Source: a virus
Strand: one strand, 5' to 3'
Virus record (IMG/VR): IMGVR_UViG_3300017969_000098
Location: 1-27,565 of that record
DNA: 27,565 bases
Position 1 is the first letter of the stretch. Each line of letters opens with the position of its first letter. The notes under the pieces were generated by a model that was not told the DNA's origin, made no database searches, and was given only the letters and a program-made list of their open reading frames with translations. Made by a program: the position numbers and the translations under genes. Below, in pieces: positions 7,082 through 23,889 of this stretch.

Positions 7082-7546
7082 ATGGCAGTTGTTACATACA
7101 AAGATCAAAAACGCACCAAGCGAACATCACAATCTTCACAGGTGTTCAAAGGGTTTTCAACACAAGGCAGAGAATTTCTTGACCCAAAATTGTATGATGT
7201 CGAGCTAGTCAAACAAGATCTTTTGAATCATTTCAACATTCGCAAAGGTGAAAAACTAGAAAATCCAGATTTTGGCACCAACATCTGGTTGTATTTGTTT
7301 GATCCACTAGATGATGACACAAAAAATGCTGTGATTCGTGATGTTGAAGAAGTGATCAATTATGATCCTCGTGTGACTTTGGATCAAATTGAAGTACAAG
7401 AAGCAGAGCAAGGTTTGTCTGTCAAAATGACAGTGTTGTACATTGGTTATGCAATTGGCGAAACCATCAATTTACTTTTTGATTCAGAACAAGGACTTTT
7501 ACAAGGTCCTGGACAATTTTTCAATTCATCAACAGCAAATTATTAA
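7082..7546 (+). CDS. 25: baseplate wedge protein gp25 (gpW/gp25 family)
   Basis: A 154-residue member of the gp25 family, part of the inner baseplate wedge and sheath-initiator core conserved in contractile injection systems. Diagnostic segments are DLLNHFNIRKGEKLENPDFG (about 44-63), IWLYLFDPLDDDT, then IRDVEEVINYDPRV and IGYAIGETINLLFD near the end. The KGEKLENPDFGT block with the following W/Y-L-FDP is the family signature. T4 gp25 is 132 residues; the extra length is an N-terminal basic segment (KDQKRTKRTSQ) and a C-terminal Gln/Gly tail. gp25 directly contacts gp6 and gp53, both encoded nearby. It starts 9 nt after the PAAR stop. Confidence 0.93.
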   Translation: MAVVTYKDQKRTKRTSQSSQVFKGFSTQGREFLDPKLYDVELVKQDLLNHFNIRKGEKLENPDFGTNIWLYLFDPLDDDTKNAVIRDVEEVINYDPRVTLDQIEVQEAEQGLSVKMTVLYIGYAIGETINLLFDSEQGLLQGPGQFFNSSTANY

Positions 7547-7579: not shown

Positions 7580-10500
7580 ATGGCATCCAACACTAGACAG
7601 AACACTCTTTTGGCCAACACAGTGTGGCAAAAATTGTATAGAACTTTCAAACAAGCAGATTTTAAGTCATACGATTTTGACACCATTAGACGTACTCTCA
7701 TTGATTATCTGCAACTAAATTATCCAGAATCCTTCAACGACTTTATTGAATCATCAGAATATGTTGCACTCATTGATATGATTGCATATGTGGCACAGTC
7801 GATATCATACAGAGTTGATCTCAATGCCAGAGAAAACTTTATTGATCTTGCAGAAAGAAAAGAATCTGTACTGAGATTAGCAAGACTGATTTCATATCAA
7901 CCCAAGCGAAACACAGCAAGCTCTGGCTTTTTAAAAATTTTATCTGTCTCAACCACGCAGAATGTTTTAGATTCTAATGGTCAAAACATTGCAAACACTC
8001 CAATACTATGGAACGACTTGACCAATGACAATTGGCAAGATCAATTCAATGCTGTGCTTAATGCGGCACTGCCAAGAAACCAGTTTGTAAACAAACCTGA
8101 ATTGAGCGCCACCATTGCTGGCATTCCTTCACAATTGTATAGAATAAATGGTGCTAACCTTGATGTACCAATTGTACCATTTTCAAAAAATATCAACGGT
8201 GTGAACATGGACTTTGAAGTAGTGCCATGTTCATTTGCAAATCAAACATATGTGTATGAAGAATCGCCTATACCTGGAAACTCTATGACCATGTTGTATC
8301 GAAATGACAGCAGAGGATTTGGCTCCAACAACACAGGCTATTTTTTACATTTTAGACAAGGTGCATTAAATTCGCAAGATTTTACTATCACCAACACAGC
8401 ACCTAACACTGTGGTTTCTATCACTGAAAACAACATCAACAATGATGATGTATTTTTGTACAAACTAGATCAAAATGGCATCATTGATCAACGCTGGCAA
8501 AAGGTACCTGCAATTGTAGGCAACAATATAATTTACAATGAATTAGCAAATAACATAGTAAACCAATTTGCTGTGGTAACCAAAACAAATGATCAAGTTG
8601 ATCTTGTGTTTTCTGATGGTGTCTACGGCACTTTGCCACAAGGCAACTTTAGATGTTATTTTAGACAGAGCAATGGTTTAACATATAATGTAAATCCTGC
8701 TGATATGCAAAACATAGATATTTCGTTAGACTATGTCAGCAAAAATGGACAAGTAAACACACTAACAATTTCTGCAAGTTTACAAAGCACTGTAACAAAT
8801 GCATCACGATCACAGTCGATACAAGAAATCAAAACTCAAGCACCACAATCTTATTACACAAACAACAGAATGATTTCTGCAGAGGACTATCAAATACTAC
8901 CTTTGACTCAAAACCAATCAATTGCAAAAATCAAATCACAGGTAAGATCGGCATCTGGAATATCAAGATTTTTAGATGTAGTTGATCCAACAGGAGTCTA
9001 TTCGCCAGTGAATGTAGTGTCTGATGATGGATACTTGTATCAAGACGAAGGAACACAAACTTTTGATTTTCAATTTACCACAAGGGATGATGTTGAAAGA
9101 GTCATCAACAGCACTCTTGCTGATGTATTCACATCGCCGGCATTAAAGCAATATTACTATAAAAATTACGGAAGGATAACTCCACCCACAGGAGTTACTT
9201 GGAACAAGTCTACTCAAACCACAAATCAAGTCACAGGTTATTTTAAAGATTCTGGACCATTGAGTGTAGGAACATCTGTGACAACAAATCTACAATATGT
9301 TACTCAGGGTGCCTTGTGTAAGTTTGTACCTACATCTGGTTCTCATTTCATGCCACAATCTGGTACACAAATGACAGGTGCAGGCGGACATCCTGGATCA
9401 TCTGATGTAATATGGTCCAAAGTGGTATCAGTTGAGGGTGATGGCTCAAATGGTGGTCTTGGAAATCTAGCAGACGGTACAGGCCCAATTGTGTTGAATG
9501 ATCTTGTACCTGCATCAGCTGTGTTAGACGAAATTATACCAAATTTTGTTGATGACATCACAACAACACTTTCTAATGCAATTATTTCTAATGTGGTTGA
9601 ATATAATGATTTTGGATTGACATACAATGTAAACACTCAAACGTGGTCAATTATTTCACAAGATAATTTAGGAAGCGGCAGTTTTGATCTAAACCAACAA
9701 GGAGATACCAGCGGTAGTAATTTAGATAATTCGTGGTTAATAAAATTTGAAACTAATGGTGTAAGTTATACAGTGACTTATAGATCAACCGAATACACAT
9801 TCGAATCTGCCACACGCAACAAATTTTATTTTGATCCACAAGCAAAAATAGTAGATCCGCAAACAGGTGTTACTATTAAAGACAAAATTAGAATTCTAAA
9901 AAGTAACACAGGTCCTGATTTTACCACCAGCATCACATACAATTATGATTGGCAGATTGTAGGTAATGTTACTGGATCAGATGGATATAACGACACAAGA
10001 AAAATAAAAGTTGGATTTTTTGATTCAGATGATGACGGTGTGATTGACAATCCAGATCTATTCACAACTATAGTTGCACCACAAGATGATGTAACAAACA
10101 AATATGTGTTTTTTGAAACAGTGACGGTGAATGGTTTTGAACAGCAAAATGTTGTTGATCAAACAAACTTTTTTGTCACAGCACTAGAATCTGATATAAC
10201 TGATTTTTCATTGTACCCAGATGGTCAACTGTTTTATTTCTATTCCACAAACACCTTTGCAGAATATGACAGTACAACTGACACAACTTCAACACCTACA
10301 GTGTATTCTGCAAAACTAGGAAGACAAGATTTACTTTACAACTACAACCATGGAGCAAACAGAAACAGAAGAATAGATCCTGCTGTGTCTAACATTGTTG
10401 ATGTGTATGTGATGACCAAATCATATGATGAATCATTACGCACCTGGCTAAGAAACAATCAAGCAACCTCTAAACCTAGTGCACCAACAATTTTTGATCT

Positions 10501-11062
10501 TGAAAGCCAATATCTTGCTTCACTTGATGGAATCAAGTCTGTGAGTGATGAAGTAATATTCAATCCCGGTCAATACACTTTGTTATTTGGTCCAGGAGCA
10601 GATGCAAACCTACAAGCACAGTTTAAAGTTGTAAAAAATCCTTTGTCATCCGCAAGTGATAATCAAATTAAATCAAGTGTGATTGCAGCCATTGATGAAT
10701 ATTTTAGAATTGATTTTTGGGATTTTGGTGATACTTTTTATTTTACAGAATTGGCAGCTTATGTTCACAATCAACTTGCTCCAGACCTACTCAGTGTGGT
10801 CATAGTTCCTGCACAATCTACATCAGGCTTCGGTTCTTTGTTTCAAGTATTTGCTGACGACAATGAAATTTTTATTTCATCAGCAACTGTTGACAATGTT
10901 GAAATTATCAATTCACTTAGTGCAGAAAAATTAAAAGCAACTGGGACAGTGGTTACCAGTGCAGAAGTTACATCTACAGCGACTTCAGGTACAGTGGCAA
11001 CCACTAGCACTGCTTCGACTTCTAGTTCATCGACAGCATCGTCTAGTGGAGGCTACTACTAA
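7580..11062 (+). CDS. 6: baseplate wedge protein gp6, enlarged
   Basis: A 1160-residue protein recognised as gp6, which forms the wedge ring that links wedges and controls sheath contraction. The N-terminus carries the conserved block [20 protein letters not shown], then [34 protein letters not shown] and [10 protein letters not shown] (about 34-112). [11 protein letters not shown] near 430 is another family segment. The C-terminal domain has [20 protein letters not shown] (about 1050), as in T4 gp6. T4 gp6 is 660 residues; the excess is mainly a beta-rich insert of about 450 residues (roughly 520-980), including a Gly/Ser-rich loop and a [12 protein letters not shown] acidic turn near 815-825 that resembles a calcium loop. 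Residues 1121-1160 are almost purely Ser/Thr/Ala/Gly/Val. A late promoter fixes the start. The stop overlaps the giant gene by one base. Confidence 0.88.
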
Positions 11063-14000
11063 TGAGTAAATCAACTAGATCAAGTTCTCAACTTTTACCA
11101 CAAATTTTTCAAACAGAAAAAAACAAAAGGTTTATAAATTCAACAATTGATCAACTGATCGAACCAAGTGTATTAGAAAAATTAAGTGCGTATATAGGAC
11201 AAAGATTTCGTCCTTCTTACAGAACATCAGACATATATGTGCAAGAAAGCACCACACAAAGGCAAAATTATCAATTAGAACCAACAGTGGTTTATAAATC
11301 TGACGGCAACACAGTAGATTTTGCATCGCAATACATTGATGCTGTCAATGAAATCGCTGCCCAAGGAGGTTCTTCTGATAAACATGACAGATTATGGCAA
11401 CAAGAATCTTATGCATATTCTCCGCCAATCGACCATGACAAATTTGTCAATTACAGACAATATTATTGGATTGCAAACAATTTATCTCCAATTACTCTTG
11501 TGCTTGGTCCTGGAACACAATCGACAATTTCCGTAACTAACAACGGGTTGGGTGCTTACAAGTTTTCTAACAAAGTTGATCAAAACAATCCAGATATAAT
11601 TGTGTACAAAGGATGTACATATAATTTTGAAATTGATGCTCCGGGTCATCCATTTTATATCAAAACACAATATGGTACAGGAGATGCTGATCAGTTTGAT
11701 TCAACTTATGTTGAAAATAATGGTGCATCTGAAGGAACAGTAAAGTTAAAAGTTCCTGCATCTGATAGTAGCACTACAGTAGATAACGTACTGTTCTACC
11801 AATGTGGCAACCACATATCTATGAAAGGTAGAATCATTATTAAAGATTTAGAATTAGAAGATTTTGATCCTGCTGAAGCAATAGAAGGATGTAAAAATTT
11901 TATCGATGCAACAGGCTTCGAGTTGACTAACACAGTCAATGTTCAAATTACATCAGGAGCAGTATCTAATTACACTAATGTAAAGTATTTTGTTAACGGT
12001 GTAGGAAACAGAATTTCATTCACTGATATTTCTCAACACGAAGTTGTAGAATCTTATGGCATAGAATCTGGAGAAATATTTGATGAAAATGGCACAGTTG
12101 GTTGGGACACAGTTGGCTTTGATAACAGCACGAGTCAAAGTACAGCACCAGATTATTGGACAATCAATAGAGAATCGCAAGATTTAAATGCATGGACCAG
12201 AGCAAATAGATGGGTACACATCGATGCTGTTAGACAGACAGAAAGCAAATTAAACACAACCATACCACTAAGCGAAAATATTAGAGCAAAAAGGCCAATT
12301 ATTGAGTTTGTTGCTAATCTTGAACTGTACAATCACGGAAACAACGGAAGATTGATCGATGTAATTGACACAGAAACTACTGATGCACTTTCTAAGGTAC
12401 AGGGAGAAGAAGGTTATTTTTCTGATGGAACCGCTTTAAGAAAAGGCGACCTTGTGATTTTTACTGCTGATCCTAACCAACAGAAACGGATTTTTGAAGT
12501 TGACTTTGCAGAAGTTTCCAACGCAGTTGATTCAACCACTGTTTTACAATTAGTCCTGAGTGAATCTTTTACTGCCCAAGAAATGTTGAGTGTGACAGCA
12601 AGAAGAGGAAACAACAGAGGAGTCACATACCACGTAGAAAATGATGTATGGAAAGCGTCTCAATTAAAAACAAAAATCAATCAAAAACCATTATTTGATG
12701 TGTTTGATAACAATCACGTTTCTTTGAGCAACTTAGACACATATGTGTCTAGTAATTTTACTGGAACAACTTTATTTGAAATTGCAACAGATGCCAGTCA
12801 AGGCACACCAGACACAGTATATGGCACAAATGTAATTTATGAAAGATTGGGACTTATTAATGATTTAAGGATAAATGATACTTTCAATTCGTCTAGTTTT
12901 CAGTATGTTAATGAAGGAGTAATTGTTGAAGAACCTATTAGACAATATCATATTCACAAATATCAAAAAGGATCAACCAATCATGTCAGTATAAACAATT
13001 GGCAAAAAACAAAAATTAAAAATAGTCAACGCATTGTCCAAACGTATGAATCCAACCACAATGAACACTATTTTGAAATAAATCATTATCTTAATGCAAG
13101 TACATTGACTGATCTTACATTCCAAGTGTTCTTGAACGGAGACTTTATTACAACTTACAGTACAGAAACAATCAATGGTAGATTTTACGTCAAGACTGAT
13201 AATGTGATAAAGCCAGGCAACGTAATCACAATTAAGTGTCATTCTAAAACTGGAACCCCATCTGGTAAAGGATTTTTCGAAACACCGTTGTCACTTCAAA
13301 GAAATAGTAAAAATGAAAATTTTGAAAAATTTACCCTAGGCGATATTGTCAAACACTATAGATTAGCCACACATGAAAATTCTTCTTTTGATGGTACACC
13401 AGTTGGCATAAACAATTCTCGAGATATACATCAATTGTTTACATACGGTTCTCTCATCATGCAACACTCTGGATCTGATGTGTTAGCACATATATTACTG
13501 AAAGATGATGTGATGAGTCTTGCAAAATCTATGCGTTTTGCAGCTAGAGAATATGAAAAAATTAAACAGAGCTTAGTTGAAAGAAGCAAGGAAATTTCGC
13601 TAGATGGTAATGATGATGAAAACTTAAATCGGGTGTTAGAATTAATAAACGAAAATAAGACTGATTCAATGCCGTTTGCAAACACAGACATGGTTGGGTT
13701 TGGCAATGATAGGATAGTGACCTCCTATACAGTGGTTGATTCAGAAGTTGTAAACTATCCAATAAGTCAAAGACACAATCTTAATGAATTGTCAAAAAGA
13801 TCTGTATATGTATACCTTAACAATGTTCAACTAGTACACGAATTAGATTATGAGTTTACTGATGTATCTGACTCTTCTAATCAACATGGAGTTGAAATCA
13901 AAACAGATTTATCTGTAAATGATGTGATAAAAGTTGTGGAGTATGATTCTACCGATAGCAGTTTTGTTCCAGATACACCTGCAAAATTAGGATTGGCACC

Positions 14001-17000
14001 AGTGTATCAGCCAATTAAATTCAAAGATGACACTTATCAAACTGATGATGGTTTGGGTTTAGATGTCATCAAAGGTCATGACGGATCTATTACACTTGCA
14101 TACGGTGATTACAGAGATAATCTTTTACTTGAATTTGAAAAAAGAATTTACAACAATATAAAAACAAAGTACAATCCGGATGTTCTAAACATAAACTATG
14201 GCTTCTTCAGAGATAACGAGTACACTAACAAAGAAATCCTTGATGTATTTGCTAGAGATTTTTTCAGTTGGACTGGAACAAATGCCATAGATTACACAAC
14301 CAATGACACATATGATGCATCCAACGATTTTACATGGAATTTTGCACAATATAAAAATTCTATAGACAACACATCACTTCCTGGCCATTGGAGAGGTATC
14401 TACACACAATGGTTTGACACAGATACTCCACACACTACACCTTGGGAAATGTTAGGATTCAGCATTAAACCTGATTGGTGGGAAACAAGATATGGACCTG
14501 CTCCTTATACTAGAGGCAATCTACTGTTGTGGAATGACATTGCGGACGGATTCATTGCACAAGGAGAAAGGCAAGGCTATTATACGCAATACAGAAGAAC
14601 GAATGACTTTTACAGTGTGATTCCTGTAACAAATGACGGCAAGATCGCATCGCCATCTGATGCAGGGATATTAGGGCAGTCAACAATATTAGATCGCGAT
14701 CAACAAAACAACTGGACGTATGGCGATTCTGGTCCACCAGAATCAGCTTGGAAAAAATCTTCTTCATATAGATTTGCTGAACAGGTTGCAAAATTTTTAT
14801 CGAAACCAGGTCAATACGCCGGCATGTATTTTGATACATCAAGAATTAATAAAAATGTTGTAAATCAGTATGTCTATAATGGCAAATATAGACAACCTGT
14901 TAACAACTATTTCTTACCATCAGCAACAGTGTTTACATCTGGTTATATCAACACTGTATTTGATTACATCAAACATTTGGGATATAATGCATCAACATAT
15001 GTTGCAAATAGATTTGATAACATTAGTGTTCAATTGTCCTACAAACTAGGTGGATTTACAAACAAAGATAATCTTCAAGTTTCTGTAGGTAGTGTATCAC
15101 CACAGACCACAGCACAAGGAGTATTTTTACCACAGGAAAACTTTGATATACTGCTTTACAAAAGTGCTCCAGTGGCAACTGTAAATTACAGTGGTGTGAT
15201 TGTTCAAAAGACAGACAATGGGTACAAAGTGTCTGGATATTCAAATTATGCAAGAACTTTTTCTTACTATAAACCTAAACAGTACAATGATCATGTGCTT
15301 GTAAGAGTTGGAGCCACCACTGAATCTTTTAGCCAATGGCAGCCAGGAGGTTTTTACGCAAATGGTTCAATTGTAAAAAATGCTGGAAAGTTTTACAGAG
15401 CACTGCAGAGCATCAGTTCTAATCAAACCTTTAATGAATCTAATTGGAATGAAATTGGTTCTGCTCTTCCTTTGAAAGGCGGTGTGTCGGTCAAACAATA
15501 TAAAAACTATGAAACTACAGCAACAATTGTGCCATACGGAACTGAGTTAAAAAACGAACAAGAAGTGGCTGATTTTTTGTTTGGTTACAGCAAATATCTT
15601 GAACAACAAGGATTTATATTTGATAATTTTGTTTCGGAACTTAATCTTCCTGCAAACTGGGAACTTAGTGTCAAGGAATTTTTGTTTTGGTCAACTCAAA
15701 ATTGGAATACAAATGCAGTAATTACACTTTCGCCTGCGGCTCAGTCTCTGAAATATAAAAAAGAAAATACAATAGGTGATGATCTTACAGACTCTGATCA
15801 ATACTATTCAGTGCTTCAGCAAGATGGACTGCCGATTAATCCCTACAATTTAAGCACAAAAAGACAGGATGGGATTTTTGAAATTATTACAAATCCTGCA
15901 GAAGACGGCATTTACAATGCAGACATCAAAGCAGTCCAAAAAGAACACTTAATATTACTAGACAACTCATCTCAATTTAAAGATGTTATTTTTGATGAGG
16001 CTCTAGGAAATAGACAAGACCGTGTAAAATTAGTTGGATTTAAAACAGCAAATTGGAATGGCGATCTATATGCACCAGGATATGTAATCGATCAAGCAAA
16101 AATTAGTGAATGGCAACCTTTTAGCGACTATAGAATAGGTGAAAATGTTTCACATCAAGGCAAATATTATACAGCAATACAAAACCATACAAGTGATGAA
16201 AATTTTGATAGCAAAAATTGGTCTGCTAAAACAGAATCTCCTCAACAACAGATGCTACCTAACTGGGATGCCAAAGCCGAAGCATTCAGAGATTTTTATT
16301 CTTTAGACTCAGACAATTTCGATGCGGAACAACAAAGATATGCTCAACATTTAATTGGCTATCAACAAAGAGATTATTTTAATGATCTTGGTTTAGAAGA
16401 ACTTACACAATTCAAATTCTATCAAGGTATGCTCAAGGAAAAAGGCACAGTGTCTCCAATCCAAAAATTTAAATCTCAACCGCAAACCGGACAAACAGTT
16501 TCTTACAATCTTTTTGAAGATTATGCATTCAGAGTTGGAGAATTTGGCGGCCACAGAACTCAGCAAGAATTCGCTTTCAAAGTTGACGAATCTATTCACA
16601 TAAAAAATAAATTGATTTACAATATTACAGATGGAAGTCAAGCAGATACAGAAACAATTATAAATGTAAATGCTGTAAATGATGAGTTATTGATAAAACC
16701 TTATGCATTCAGTGGATCACCATTTATAACTTATGATTATGATCAGCATCAAAACACCACACAATCTATATTTTCTTATCCCATAGCAGGATATGCCTTA
16801 CCAGAGCAAGTTACAAAAACTGTGTTCCATGAAAGTGAACTTCTTGATTTAGATGTAAGTGATCTCAAAGAAGGCTCTACTGTATGGATTGCAAACACAG
16901 CCAGTGGTGATTGGGATGTCAAAAGAGTAAACAGTATTAATGCAAATGCAACAGTGTACAAACAATTTGATAACACACTGCAGATTTCATCGAACAGACC

Positions 17001-20000
17001 GCATGGTTTATCAGAAGATGACTACGTGGTTATAACAAGCACTGACGCATCAATCAATGGCATATATAAAGTCAAACTTACAGATAGCACTGATGATCTG
17101 AATACTTTCAGTGTAGATTTTACAGGTAATTTTGATAGCACAAACACTGTTGGGGTGATTTCTAAACTTACAAGCATCAGAATAAATTCTATTGACAACA
17201 TAGAGTCCATTACTCCAACAAAAGGATTTCAAATCGGAAACTATGTGTATGTTGATAACAATTACAATGAGCAATATCCTAACAATGGATTATGGAAAGT
17301 ATATCAAAAATCTGTTGATACAGATTATACCATAGGCGAGCAAACATTTAGTGACGAACTTTCTCAAGATGGTGAAACTGCCACAGCAATTGCTGTGTCT
17401 GACAACAATCTGTATCTAGGAGTAGGTGCTCCTGGATCTAACAAAGTATTTGTTTATTTGCGTGGTAACGTGACAGATGATTTTACACTTCGCAATGATA
17501 TTGAACTTGATATAGGCAACACAGCAAATGATGATAGATTTGGTGAAAGTTTAGCCATCACTACAGATGGAGCAAGACTTTTTGCAAGTTCGCCTGGAAC
17601 ATTTGACATTGTTAAATTGACACTCAGTGCAACAGCAAGAACTTATTCCCGTGGTACAACCATCACAGGAGCAAACAGTGGTGCCACTGGTACAATTTTA
17701 GACATAGATTGGGACAATGATATCATATGGGTAAAAAATACCGGCAATCAAGATTTCGAAGTAGAAACATTGGACATAGGTGATTCGTCATCGGTGTTGA
17801 GCATCACAGCAATACTAGGATCGGATTATGCATCACAAGGTGCAGTGCATTGGATCAACAGAGACGCAAGATTAAGTTTTGGCATCAATCAATCGATAAT
17901 TGCACCCAATGTTGACGCAGGAGGAGAATTTGGTAAAGCAATTGCTGTATCTGGTGATGGCACATACCTTGCTGTTGGAGCTCCAGGATCACCAGATGAT
18001 TCTGTAACCAATGATAGAGGTGCAGTGTTCATCTACAAATATGCCAAAGATGGTTCGTCTGCTAGATATGATCTTCACCAAACGCTGATTCCTTCATCAA
18101 ACAGTCAAGTTGATTCAAGATTTGGCGATAAAATTGCTTTTGCAGAAGATGGAAATACTTTGGCAATCTCTGCACCTTTGTATGATAATGACAGCACAAC
18201 TGCAAATGCAGGCACAGTTTATGTTTATAGATTAAAAAATGACACATTTTTTGAGCATGAAAAAATTGAACCAAATCTTATAGATGATGTGCAGTTTGGA
18301 AATGGAGTAGCTATCAGTGAAGATGGCACTGACTTACTAGTAGGTGCACCAAAATATACAGATGTATTAGGTGATCAAGGAGGAGTATTCCATTACATTC
18401 AAAACACATCTGAACATGTTGGAGATGGCAGTACAACTACATTTACTGTTGGTTTCAATATTGATCATTCAATACATTTGGGTGTTTTTGTAAACAACGA
18501 CAATCTTGTACAAAATGATGACAGTAGCACAGCACCATTTTACACACTAGATGGTTCTAGCAACACAATTACATTCGGCACCGCTCCTACTTCAAGTGCT
18601 GTGATTGTAATCAAACAATTTGCATTTGAAGAAATCATCACAGCACCAAAAATACAAAGCAATCAACAATTTGGTAATAATTTGTATGTCAAAGATAACA
18701 CTCTTTTAATCCAAAGCAACAAGGGTGACGCTGAATTATCTACAACATTTGACACTGTGACTGATGATGGGTCAACTGCTTTGTCTGGGACTACGTTTGA
18801 TAGATCAACAACAAGATTTATAGATCTGCAATTAGATAGTGGACAAGTTCATGTATACAATAAATTAGACACACAATTTAAGTATGTGCAAAATTTGCCT
18901 ACAAGTGTAAATTTACAGACTGGTGCAAATTATGGCGGTGCGTTAGCATTGTCTCAACTTTCTGCTTATATTGGTGCACCAAAACTTGATACTACACTGT
19001 CAAATAGTGGCAGACTGTTTGTGTTTGAAAAACCAACATCTGATTTAGGATGGAAAACTGCTTATACCCAACCTGATCTAGTTCGTTCAGCAAACATAAC
19101 CAACAGTTTCTTATACAACAAAGACACTGGAAAAACACTCACTCAACTAGCTTTAATCGATCCTGCCAAAGGAAGATTATTTGGCGAAGTACAAAAAGCC
19201 ATTTCTTATCAGACACCTTATGATCCAGCAAACTATTCATCATGGGATGACGATCATAATGGAGAAATTTGGTTAGACGTTTCAAAATTCAAATACATTT
19301 GGTATGAACAAGGATCACTAGATGAAAAATTGACAAATTGGGGCAAACTGCATCCAAGCAGTTCGGTTGAAGTTAATGTTTGGATTGAAAGTGATCTTAC
19401 ACCAACTCAATACAATGCTCTGTCAGGAACTAATGAAGGAGAAAGTCAAAATATAACAGGAACTGCAAAAACAAACTTTTTAACCAAAAGAGTTTTTGAT
19501 GCAAACAAATCAACATTTACAAACAAATATTTTTATTGGGTAACCAATAGAAAAACTGTTGACAGCAACAACAGTGTATCTGCTCAACAAGTTGCTAATG
19601 CAATACAAAATCCCGATTCGTTTGCAAACAATTATGGTGCTGTGGTTAGTAACAGAGCAGTGTTGTTAAATCTTGATCGTTCTCAATTAGAGCAAGATAG
19701 AATTATTTTTAAAATTGAAAATACAACTGACAATGAACAGCTACAAAAACACACTGAACATGTTTTAATATCAAAGGATGATGCAAATTCAGAAATTCCT
19801 CAACAACTTACTGATAAATTTTTTGATAGTCTTATTGGTTTTGATAATTTTGGTAGATCAGTACCGGATGTAACTCAACCAGAAGGATTAAGATATGGTT
19901 CGTTAAACAGACCAAGGCAGAGTTGGTACAAGGATAGATTAGGGGCTTTAAAAATTATTGTGCAATTTATAAACGATAATCTAACAAACAAGCCTTATGC

Positions 20001-23000
20001 CACAACAAAGGATTTAACAAAATTTTTAGAAAAATCAACACTGCCCAGTTTGACATTAGGTGAGTATGATAGATCTGTAGATACAGATGTTGATTTATTA
20101 TATGTTAATACAGATGAACTGAGTGCAGGGTATAAAATTTTAGTACTTGTTGATTCCAATGTTGCACAAGGTTGGTCAGTAAATGAATGGAGCGGGACTG
20201 CTTGGTCAAGAACATCGCAACAGACTTATGACACTGCGGATTATTGGGATTATGCTGATTGGTATGCTAATGGCTATTCTTCTAGTACAGTTGCCAATTA
20301 TATTGTTGCAGATGAAAGAGCAAGATTGAATGGAACTTACAATGTCAAAGATATTGTAAAAGTCCAGACATCATATGATGGTGAGTTTAGAATGTATGAA
20401 AAAACACCTTCTAGCTGGAAAGTGGTTGCTATACAAAATGGAACTATTCAACTATCAACAAAATTATATGATTATGTAAACAATCAAGTGGGTTTTGGAG
20501 CAGACGCATATGGTTCATCATTGTATGATGCTGAAGCAGTTACAGAATTAAGAAATATTTTAGAAGGTATAAAATCATGGGCTATTGATGAAGATGCTCT
20601 ATTGTTCAACAAATTATTTTTTATAGGTGTAAGAATTGCACAACAAGAACAAAAAGATATTGATTGGGTGTTCAAAACATCGTTTGTAAAACTTATAAAC
20701 ACATATTCAAATCTAGAACAATTGCGTGAGTTCCAGATCGATTCTTCTGATGCTGTGCAAAAGTTTTTAGATGAAGTTCTACCATTCAAAACAAATGTGC
20801 GAGAAGACATTACATTATACAACAATCAAGATGTTTTTGAAGGTGACATCACAGATTTTGACAATAAAACTTATTTTGACAAAACCATACAAGAATACAT
20901 CACTCCAACTCTACGTCAAGATGATTCATCATATCCTGATGTGTACAGTAAAAATCCATGGAAATTGTACGCAGACAACTTTAAATTTGTAATAGATTCT
21001 ATTGTTGTTGATCGTGGTGGATCAGGATACACAGAACCACCAAGAGTTGTCATATCAGGTGGTGGCGGCACCGGTGCTACAGCAACAGCAAGTATAGGAG
21101 ACGGAAAAGTTACACGGATAACAGTTACTAATAAAGGGTCGGGTTATTACACAACACCAACAGTTACACTACAAGGCGGAGGAGGTAGCACTGTGACTAC
21201 AGTTGCACTTGCTCATGCAGAACTCGGAAACGGAAAAGTTAGATCAATAGATTCGCAAATAAAGTTTGATCGTGTGAACACTCTAAAAGAAATCAATAGT
21301 TCTAACATTTTAGAATGGGCACCCTTTACATCTTATTCGATAGGTGACAATGTCAGATATCTAAATGAAATATATAGAGTGCAAGAATCATTTACAAGTG
21401 GCAAGACTTTTGACGACAATGCGATTTTATCTGATTCTTCTTCGGTAACAAACACAAGTCCTATTACAAGATGGACAGCTACAGATAGAATTGCAAGTTT
21501 CTATTCACCAACAACTGGTATGGCAGGACTAATTGGTGATGGCTCAACTACAATTAATGCTTATTCTCAACTAATGACTGGGATAGAATATCCAGGAGTA
21601 AAAGTTTCAGGCTTATCGTTTGCTTCGTCAACTGGTTATGATTTAACAGGATTTGATTTAGTGCAATACGACACAAATATTATTGTTACAGAGGATAGCG
21701 ATCCAGAAAATTTAGATCAAGTACTAGATTCAAAAACATTTACTACTGAACTAGGTATTAGAGCAGAAGATATTAATGTAGTTGGCGATGCTTTTATTTC
21801 GGAATATTCAGCTCATGCACCAGAAGAGGTGTTGCCAGGTGGAGTGTATGACACCATGGATCTCAAGGTGTACACAAAACAAACTGACGGTGCCTCAACT
21901 GTAAGCAAAAAAAATTATTATGGTGATGGTAGCACAGTTAACTATGCAACTCCATCTTTATCTGCTGTTGATGGCTTGCGTGTATTCAAAAACAATCTAT
22001 TCCAAAGAAGAGGTATTGAATATACGCTTGATTATCCCAATAAAACTATACAATTTGCAATTGCTCCTAGTTCAGGGGATATTATTTCTATCACCGCAAT
22101 CCGAGTAGCTACAGACAATTTGATAGGCAAGTTTGAGTTTACTGCTACAGATAGTTCTAATACATTTGAGTCAAAAATAAATTTTGATCTAATCACACAA
22201 CAATATGTTTTGGTCAATGGAATCAAACAGACTGTATCTTTGCAACTTAATGCTGATGGAGTGACAGCAGATGTAAAATTTACTCAAGCACCTGCTGTGG
22301 GTGATCAAGTGCAGGTATACCTATTTGATTTACCTTCTGGAACAAAAGCGTTCAGCGAAGTGGTTACCACACAATATGACAATATTCAAACTGATTCAAC
22401 TGAATTTGTTATTCAATTAGATCCTGTGTCTTTAATAACAGGACCTCATCATCACAAAGTTATAGTTGAAGGAGTCAGTGGTGCTGACAAATCAAATCGA
22501 TACAGGCTGCAACCACCTCAGATTGCTTATTATTTGGGAGATGGTTCAACAGTTGATTTTGTTGTGCCTAACGAACCAGTTGAGTCAGCTACTGCTGACA
22601 TCACAAACACAGAAGTTTGGAAAAATGGAATCCAACTTGTGGGTGTATCAGACTTTTCAATGAGCACTACTTTAGGTGGTGATAGATCGGTGGCTTTGAC
22701 AACTGCTCCAGCAGATGGCGATGTAGTTGCTATTGTTTACAAATCTGGTCATGATTATGAACTTGATGCTAGTGGAAAATTAGTTTTACAGGCAGGATGG
22801 AACGGCGATTCTAGCATAGATGCTGAGAGTGTGTTTGTAACAACATTTTCTAATCATGACACACAATCATTGAGAACTGAAGTATTTGCAGGTTCAACAG
22901 GTGCTCTTGCTGTGAATAGATTAAATTATGGTGGAGTGGTTGACTCTATTGATAACACAGAAGATTTTGGTGATCTTGGCGCTCTTGATCAACCAAATGA

Positions 23001-23889
23001 AGATTTTGGTTTTACTGATGGTAACATCTTTGTTGTAGACATACAGTCTAAAAGGTATAGACTGAGTGCTACACCAGTCAATGAAAGTTATGTATTTGTA
23101 GCAGTGAACAAAGAATACCTCACAGCAAATCATGATTTTATTTTGGAAGGCAATGAGATTGTGTTACCTAATAGAAATTTAGGTGTAAATGATGTAATCA
23201 CCATTACATATGTTGCTGGTGGTGTGTCTAAACCTGCGATTGCTTATAGAGTTTTCAAAGACATCATCAACAGATATCACTACAAAAGAATCAGCACAGC
23301 ACATTCCACATATCTATCATCTGATGTGAATATAAGTGATACCGAAATCACAGTGAGTGATGCAAGTGCATTAGGTGATCCAGACACTGATGCTAATAAT
23401 CCAGGTGTTGTGTTCATAGGCACAGAAAGAATTGCATATTTTGAAAAAGATGGCAACACACTGCGTAGGTTATTCAGAGGCACGCTCGGCACTGCAATTC
23501 AACAACACACAAGAAATGCCAAAGTTGTTGATGCCAGCGGAATTCAAACAATGCCATATCAAGACACTACCACAACAACTACATTTACTGGCGACGGAAG
23601 CACAGTGTCATTTGCGTTAGATTATGTTCCGTCAAACAAAGACCAAGTGCTTGTATTTGTTGGAGGTGAAAATATCAAAACATTTAGTGTTGGAAGTGAT
23701 TCTAGTTCAGCAGTAATTTTAGACACAGCACCTGCATCAGGGGTTCAAATCAACATCATAAGGAAAACAGGTTCAGTGTGGTACAATCAAGGTGCGACCA
23801 CAGGTGCTGACGGACAAGGACTTCAACAATCTACAAATATAAATGTGGCGTTTCTGCAAGACAAATCAGCAGATCTAAGTCTAATTTAA
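11062..23889 (+). CDS. giant multidomain virion structural protein (gp7/gp8 position)
   Basis: A single 4275-residue frame with no interruption. The first 140 residues ([39 protein letters not shown]) look like a conserved baseplate-attached N-terminus. In order, I see an amicyanin-like cupredoxin domain (155-262), a long unrecognised region with [15 protein letters not shown] near 1140, CBM5/12-like modules (1424-1466, 1682-1723), a probable seven-bladed FG-GAP propeller (2104-2657), an unrecognised region, a GSGY repeat (3314-3397), a third CBM-like module (3417-3455), and GDGST modules (starts at 2454, 3492, 3621, 3826, 4177). It directly follows gp6, where T4 encodes gp7 (1032 residues) and gp8, neither recognised elsewhere here. 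It is therefore likely a peripheral baseplate or adhesion protein on the virion. No signal peptide or membrane segment. TGGAGG at 11047-11052 lies 9 nt before the ATG, which overlaps the gp6 stop. Its role is inferred from position and domains only. Confidence 0.7.
11524..11847 (+). other. amicyanin-like cupredoxin domain within the giant protein
   Basis: Residues about 155-262. APGHPFYI supplies His196; the C-terminal strand [10 protein letters not shown] gives Cys248, His251 and Met254, followed by KGRIII. A distant His and then Cys-x2-His-x2-Met is the type 1 copper ligand pattern, with the short loop spacing of amicyanin. Copper binding itself is inferred. Confidence 0.6.
15331..15459 (+). 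other. CBM5/12-like module 1 in the giant protein
   Basis: Residues 1424-1466. W1426, Y1432, then [15 protein letters not shown] and a closing W1462 follow the pattern W-x5-Y-x2-G-x-x-V-x4-G-x-x-Y...W of chitin-binding CBM5/12 modules. Ligand unknown. Confidence 0.5.
16105..16230 (+). other. CBM5/12-like module 2 in the giant protein
   Basis: Residues 1682-1723. W1684, Y1690, [15 protein letters not shown] and W1720 repeat the module 1 pattern with clearer agreement to the family. Confidence 0.55.
17371..19032 (+). repeat. FG-GAP-type beta-propeller repeats in the giant protein (apparent seven blades)
   Basis: Seven repeats between residues 2104 and 2657 share the pattern FG-x-x-x-A-x-x-x-DG-x-x-L-x-V-G-A-P, then GxVYVY. 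FG (or YG) pairs are at 2160, 2290, 2354, 2412, 2537 and 2624; the first blade keeps only the VGAPGS half (2121-2126). The calcium loop of integrin FG-GAP repeats is reduced to a lone DG, as in the FG-GAP_2 type. Two inserts break the series: about 2186-2285 and a GDGST module at about 2454-2520. Confidence 0.65.
21001..21252 (+). repeat. GSGY glycine-rich duplicated repeat in the giant protein
   Basis: Residues 3314-3397. Two half-repeats, [20 protein letters not shown] and [18 protein letters not shown], separated by a [12 protein letters not shown] strand. The second is followed by GNGKVRSI. The pattern resembles short beta repeats common in phage fibres. Confidence 0.6.
21310..21426 (+). 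other. CBM5/12-like module 3 in the giant protein
   Basis: Residues 3417-3455. W3419, Y3425, [14 protein letters not shown] follow the same pattern as modules 1 and 2, but the closing Trp is not at the expected place, so this copy is the most degenerate. Confidence 0.45.

Follow-up and report, generated by a model that had tools for sequence, protein, structure and literature searches.

Does a giant structural protein from a virus tail carry a copper site of the kind found in small electron carriers, and, if so, what would such a site do in a baseplate? The question is raised by a 27.6-kb virus record (27,565 nucleotides, referred to here as the window, that is, the whole stretch of DNA analyzed), which contains a run of tail genes. 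The window is probably a fragment and its source was probably a marine virus of bacteria. A preliminary description of its sequence had proposed an amicyanin-like blue copper site near the start of a phage tail protein. Here, we have examined the gene context, predicted fold, distribution, and ligand conservation of the corresponding domain, and weighed several explanations for its presence in a virion protein.

The Megaprotein and Its Gene Neighborhood

The tail gene run encodes structural and hub-type proteins, a PAAR-like protein, and gp25-like and gp6-like wedge subunits, followed by a virion megaprotein of 4275 aa (11062..23889, + strand, ATG start). A late sigma factor gene (1043-1828, − strand, phrog_12791) adjoins the tail genes. 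The gp25-like baseplate wedge subunit (7082..7546, + strand) matches phrog_261 with an E-value of 4.4e-19, and the gp6-like baseplate wedge subunit directly upstream of the megaprotein (7580..11062, + strand) matches phrog_10646 with an E-value of 6.8e-291. With genes starting at 7082, 7580, and 11062, the window follows the T4-type order gp25-gp6-gp7, so that the megaprotein stands where gp7 would be expected in a T4-like baseplate operon. The same gene order is found in P-TIM68, whose third gene encodes a 4307-aa "baseplate wedge initiator"; sequence kinship between the window megaprotein and P-TIM68 gp7 was sought, and no convincing match was obtained.

The megaprotein matches phrog_10938 ("virion structural protein") in four stretches (E = 4.6e-301), a strong match that extends over a large part of the protein, and the record of its PA5oct homologue carries the note ESI-MS/MS. 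The designation as a phage tail protein is thus supported by the preceding wedge genes, the profile match, and the PA5oct annotation. The N-terminal part (residues 1-150; 11062..11511, + strand) is common to jumbo-phage megaproteins without a cupredoxin-like domain. In addition, matches to CBM_5_12 chitin-binding-type and FG-GAP repeat models were observed within residues 1683-2325 (window positions 16108-18036).

A Predicted Cupredoxin Fold with a Type 1 Ligand Set

The cupredoxin-like domain occupies residues 151-265 of the megaprotein (11512..11856, + strand). An AlphaFold2 model built from an alignment of the window domain and 27 viral relatives has a mean pLDDT of 91.9 and contains eight strands. 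Among the Foldseek matches listed against the PDB, the best was AcoP (7z3f, E = 2.3e-5, probability 1.0), followed by rusticyanin, plastocyanin, and copper oxidases and reductases, and VIA-align gave Z-scores of up to 10.5, the highest being to Cu nitrite reductase (rmsd 2.1 over 94 residues). At the sequence level, a profile of 31 relatives compared with PDB sequences placed Cu nitrite reductases, azurin, pseudoazurin, amicyanin, and plastocyanin at the head of the list, with a best E-value of 1.2e-4. When the single window domain was used, phmmer returned only chance matches in the PDB, and searches of Pfam and NCBIfam gave no significant match. The Pfam Copper-bind model, which covers plastocyanin and azurin, did not match the window domain and matched 12 of the 31 relatives weakly (best E = 1.4e-4). 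A profile search of PDB sequences found no solved structure containing this domain. Structure prediction, Foldseek, VIA, and the family profile agree on the cupredoxin fold that had been claimed: on its predicted structure, a Greek-key beta-sandwich, the window domain belongs to the cupredoxin fold superfamily.

The predicted ligands, all on the + strand, are His196 (CAT, 11647..11649), Cys248 (TGT, 11803..11805), His251 (CAC, 11812..11814), and Met254 (ATG, 11821..11823), the last being the predicted axial ligand. In a profile alignment with amicyanin, whose sequence was confirmed to be identical to 1AAC, all four pair with amicyanin residues (H46/C98/H101/M104 in domain numbering with H53/C92/H95/M98). 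Upon re-reading of the positions, the complete type 1 set H196 and C248-x2-H251-x2-M254 was found as claimed, with the spacing of amicyanin, and the segments APGHPF, LFYQC, and KGRIII were likewise present as first given. The label "amicyanin-like" is therefore apt for the ligand spacing; by sequence, the window domain reaches no Pfam copper family. The whole megaprotein contains only 4 Cys in 4275 aa, and among 10,000 shuffles of its sequence the C-x2-H-x2-M pattern appeared in 0.05%, and the pattern together with an upstream His in 0.01% (1 of 10,000). Free copper is scarce in the cytosol, where phage proteins fold, a point in favor of zinc or another metal being bound in place of copper for stability. 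Against this stands the nature of the ligands, as Cys, two His, and Met spaced as in cupredoxins are a combination typical of copper sites, and we regard a metal other than copper as highly improbable.

Distribution in Phages, Bacteria, and Giant Viruses

The domain is widespread. A tblastn search with the copy from P-SSM2 found 352 phage records, nearly all of cyanophages and including two Pelagibacter phages and one actinophage, and most of the matches listed fall at the C-terminal end of the baseplate wedge tail fiber connector, gp9. There are 307 records with the gp9 N-terminus and 326 with the gp9 copy of the domain, such that the domain forms the end of gp9 in nearly all T4-like cyanophages (about 300-350 records). 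Further copies belong to tail fibers that also have collagen repeats or an S74 chaperone, to proteins with matches to wedge-initiator and tail-lysozyme-hub profiles, and to a podovirus protein. In IMG/VR, 422 relatives were reached from the peptide HPFYIKT. The initial guess that CxxHxxM strands might be widespread in marine phage structural proteins is borne out by these tblastn, IMG/VR, and gp9 counts. The assignment would also offer a likely name for the C-terminal domain of cyanophage gp9, whose records refer to nothing more than its baseplate position. A divergent second subfamily, with long inserts and with the His and CxxHxxM kept, was observed in the P-HM2 gp7 frame (residues 1661-1775, L164) and in a MED4-213 protein of similar size (L175).

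Outside phages, the domain was found in bacteria, in lipoprotein-like proteins encoded by 19 of 199 genomes of Flavobacteriaceae and by Myxococcales and Bdellovibrionales, and plasmids gave no match to it. In the flavobacterial proteins (L130, L152-L157, L159, and L161) the domain lies at the C-terminus, and L130 also has a CHRD domain. Since none of the flavobacterial proteins scanned matches a copper family of Pfam or NCBIfam, they look like an unnamed bacterial cupredoxin family. The best domain tree, based on 99 columns that resolve little, needs eight changes between virus and cell, three of which are forced by well-supported branches, suggesting that the module has probably moved between virus and cell more than once. 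In the viral fold library BFVD, the same fold is present in cyanophage proteins, whose names as shown do not mention copper, as well as in a giant-virus "Blue type 1 copper protein"; the giant-virus proteins predicted to have this fold (A0A7D3QVK4, A0A481YVH3, and A0A481Z6J5) belong to Fadolivirus, a Marseillevirus, and a Pithovirus.

The overwhelming presence of the domain in phages of aquatic hosts would agree with the possibility that copper or another metal on the tail acts as a lure, helping the phage to use an outer-membrane metal receptor. The nearest published idea concerns iron: iron-binding HxH motifs in phage tail fibers and a "Trojan horse" mode of entry have been described (PMC11705849), and the sites studied here, if they hold copper, would be a copper counterpart to that idea. 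However, the domain of the window sits in a baseplate wedge protein whose exposure is only putative, and we consider such a lure highly improbable.

Conservation and Probable Loss of the Ligands

Across the wider family the ligands are strongly conserved. A diverse domain alignment has seven invariant columns, among them all four ligands (including His196), and H, C, H, and M are all present in 178 of 187 domain matches. These counts and that of the 422 IMG/VR relatives are subject to seed bias, several seeds containing ligand residues. In less biased sets, CxxHxxM is present in 58/58 distinct domains seeded on HPFYIKT, and all four ligands are present in 23/23 complete isolate copies from tblastn; two gp9 proteins reached via the gp9 N-terminus also keep all four, which brings the complete isolate copies to 25/25. 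Some individual departures were also noted. A Synechococcus phage S-SKS1 copy (L177) has C-x4-H-x2-M, a longer Cys-His spacing than that of other copies. In the proteins with three domain copies (L026-L028), the middle copy (L026:3553-3828) has lost all four ligands together (Y/S/S/L) and the other two keep them.

For the megaprotein family, near-universal conservation, as first read from the seeded counts, fails in a scan seeded only on residues 1-153 of the megaprotein, which yielded 78 relatives. The domain is in the same place in nearly all of the relatives long enough to show it. In a tree of the N-terminal part, the ligand-bearing megaproteins form one clade (support 100/99), in which the ligands are intact in 13 of 15 distinct rows and broken in two, L182 (Y/S/N/M) and L190 (K/C/H/M); L182 is close to the window (84% in the N-terminus) and yet has lost three ligands. 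Outside this clade, the ligand set is absent in all 36 of the distinct rows of the same family. Conservation of the ligands among homologues, which had been set as a check on the site, thus holds for the window's clade and the wider domain family and does not hold for these 36 homologues, which lack the ligands as a set, or for L182 and L190.

The ligand-free domains are related to the ligand-bearing ones. The sister ligand-free clade matches the diverse domain alignment in a profile comparison (E = 3.3e-26), and a model of the ligand-free form (pLDDT 84.8) has AcoP as its best Foldseek match (E = 7.8e-6). When the four ligand columns were taken out of the alignment, the domain tree grouped the megaprotein domains with and without ligands in a single clade (100/89), separate from other families, which argues that the domain was inherited with the megaprotein; the deepest rows without ligands align only in part and lie outside that tree, so that their history is less sure. 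Because the outside families carry the ligands and a regain of four is unlikely, it is simpler to assume that the whole set was lost. The four ligand positions of the sister clade are mostly Asn, Ser, Asp, and Leu, respectively, with a Ser and an Asp that are invariant in ten sequences; these stand at the former Cys and second His (L249, L237, L211, and others), as if the site had been reused.

These losses bear on whether the site in the window could be a relic of the fold, a site that came down from a copper protein of cells and has ceased to bind metal. Such a relic would fit the missing ligands of the sister clades, the broken sets of L182 and L190, the finding that the ligand columns are unexceptional within the window's clade (conserved in 11, 12, 12, and 13 of 13, that is, no more than the best third of the domain, in which 35 of 103 columns are invariant), and cellular relatives that are lipoproteins resembling ordinary cupredoxins. 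However, relative to the window, dS is near saturation and dN is 0.1-0.5 in this clade, and all four ligands are kept in 11/11 rows while C185 and C277 vary, so that Cys248 is retained where other Cys change. Since 13 of 15 distinct rows keep the full set at near-saturated synonymous divergence, and retention elsewhere is 58/58 and 25/25, the window's clade is less likely to carry a relic, and we judge this reading unlikely overall.

The same comparison weighs on a working redox or copper-sensing center, in which the copper would change state at the cell surface and assist in baseplate triggering or in contact with an electron carrier of the host. The type 1 ligand set is complete, and it is near-universal in the cyanophage gp9 tail fiber connector, a position close to host contact, but sister baseplate proteins manage without the ligands and no redox partner was seen. 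We consider a working center of this kind very unlikely; more generally, a further redox or host-contact role may be possible as an unsupported speculation.

A Proposed Structural Module that Probably Binds Copper

We favor, with somewhat better than even confidence, a structural cupredoxin module whose ligand set was lost in some lineages and kept, probably as a copper-binding site, in the window's clade. Such a module would be set into the start of a giant wedge protein at the gp7 position, between the N-terminal part and the next domain. Its basic job in the baseplate may be to act as a spacer or docking unit with a stable beta-sandwich fold, as suggested by the persistence of the module in proteins without the ligands. 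For the window's clade, one copper ion would most likely be bound at the site, possibly picked up after assembly from the lysate or sea water, and the bound copper could stiffen the ligand loop. Judged from sequence, metal binding by the predicted site of the window is likely; copper is plausible yet not essential for the place of the domain in the tail.

On a broader scale, the chances are about even that cupredoxin domains loaded with copper occur on the baseplates and tail fibers of marine phages, among them, by way of gp9, nearly all T4-like cyanophages, that these virions would thus be an unnoticed class of extracellular copper protein, and that some lineages later dropped the metal while retaining the fold. 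Copper in these sites would mean that viruses common in the sea have metal-bearing tails, a point of relevance for the stability of phages, for their contact with hosts, and for the trace-metal chemistry of sea water. Because some members of the megaprotein family have the ligand set and others lack it in a domain that is otherwise the same and equally placed, the family offers a natural experiment in which the value of the metal site is directly testable.

Comparison with Known Systems

In the open-access literature, we found nothing on a cupredoxin or blue copper domain in phage tails, and reports elsewhere or database superfamily assignments are possible. Several known systems share part of the features described here. 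Amicyanin, plastocyanin, and pseudoazurin resemble the window domain in the predicted beta-sandwich, in His...Cys-x2-His-x2-Met at amicyanin spacing, and in the pairing of the four ligands; they are secreted electron carriers, whereas the window domain is a module in a 4275-aa virion protein, with other loops and without a Copper-bind match. AcoP, a cupredoxin of Acidithiobacillus, ranks first in Foldseek with the ligand-bearing form as well as with the ligand-free form, although sequence identity is low (12-20%). The flavobacterial and myxobacterial lipoproteins share the motif and all four ligands and differ in having a lipoprotein signal and sometimes extra domains such as CHRD.

Among phage proteins, the phrog_10938 megaproteins of the jumbo phages PA5oct and Phosso are homologous to the window megaprotein over much of its length and likewise follow a gp6-like gene, but lack the cupredoxin-like domain at this place. 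Conversely, cyanophage gp9 ("baseplate wedge tail fiber connector", phrog_677, T4-GC 398) has a C-terminal domain with the same ligands, which ends a protein of about 400-500 aa, and no match to the window megaprotein was seen outside the domain. The fold and the ligand set are already known, and the open-access literature searched gave no account of their place in virion baseplates or in cyanophage gp9.
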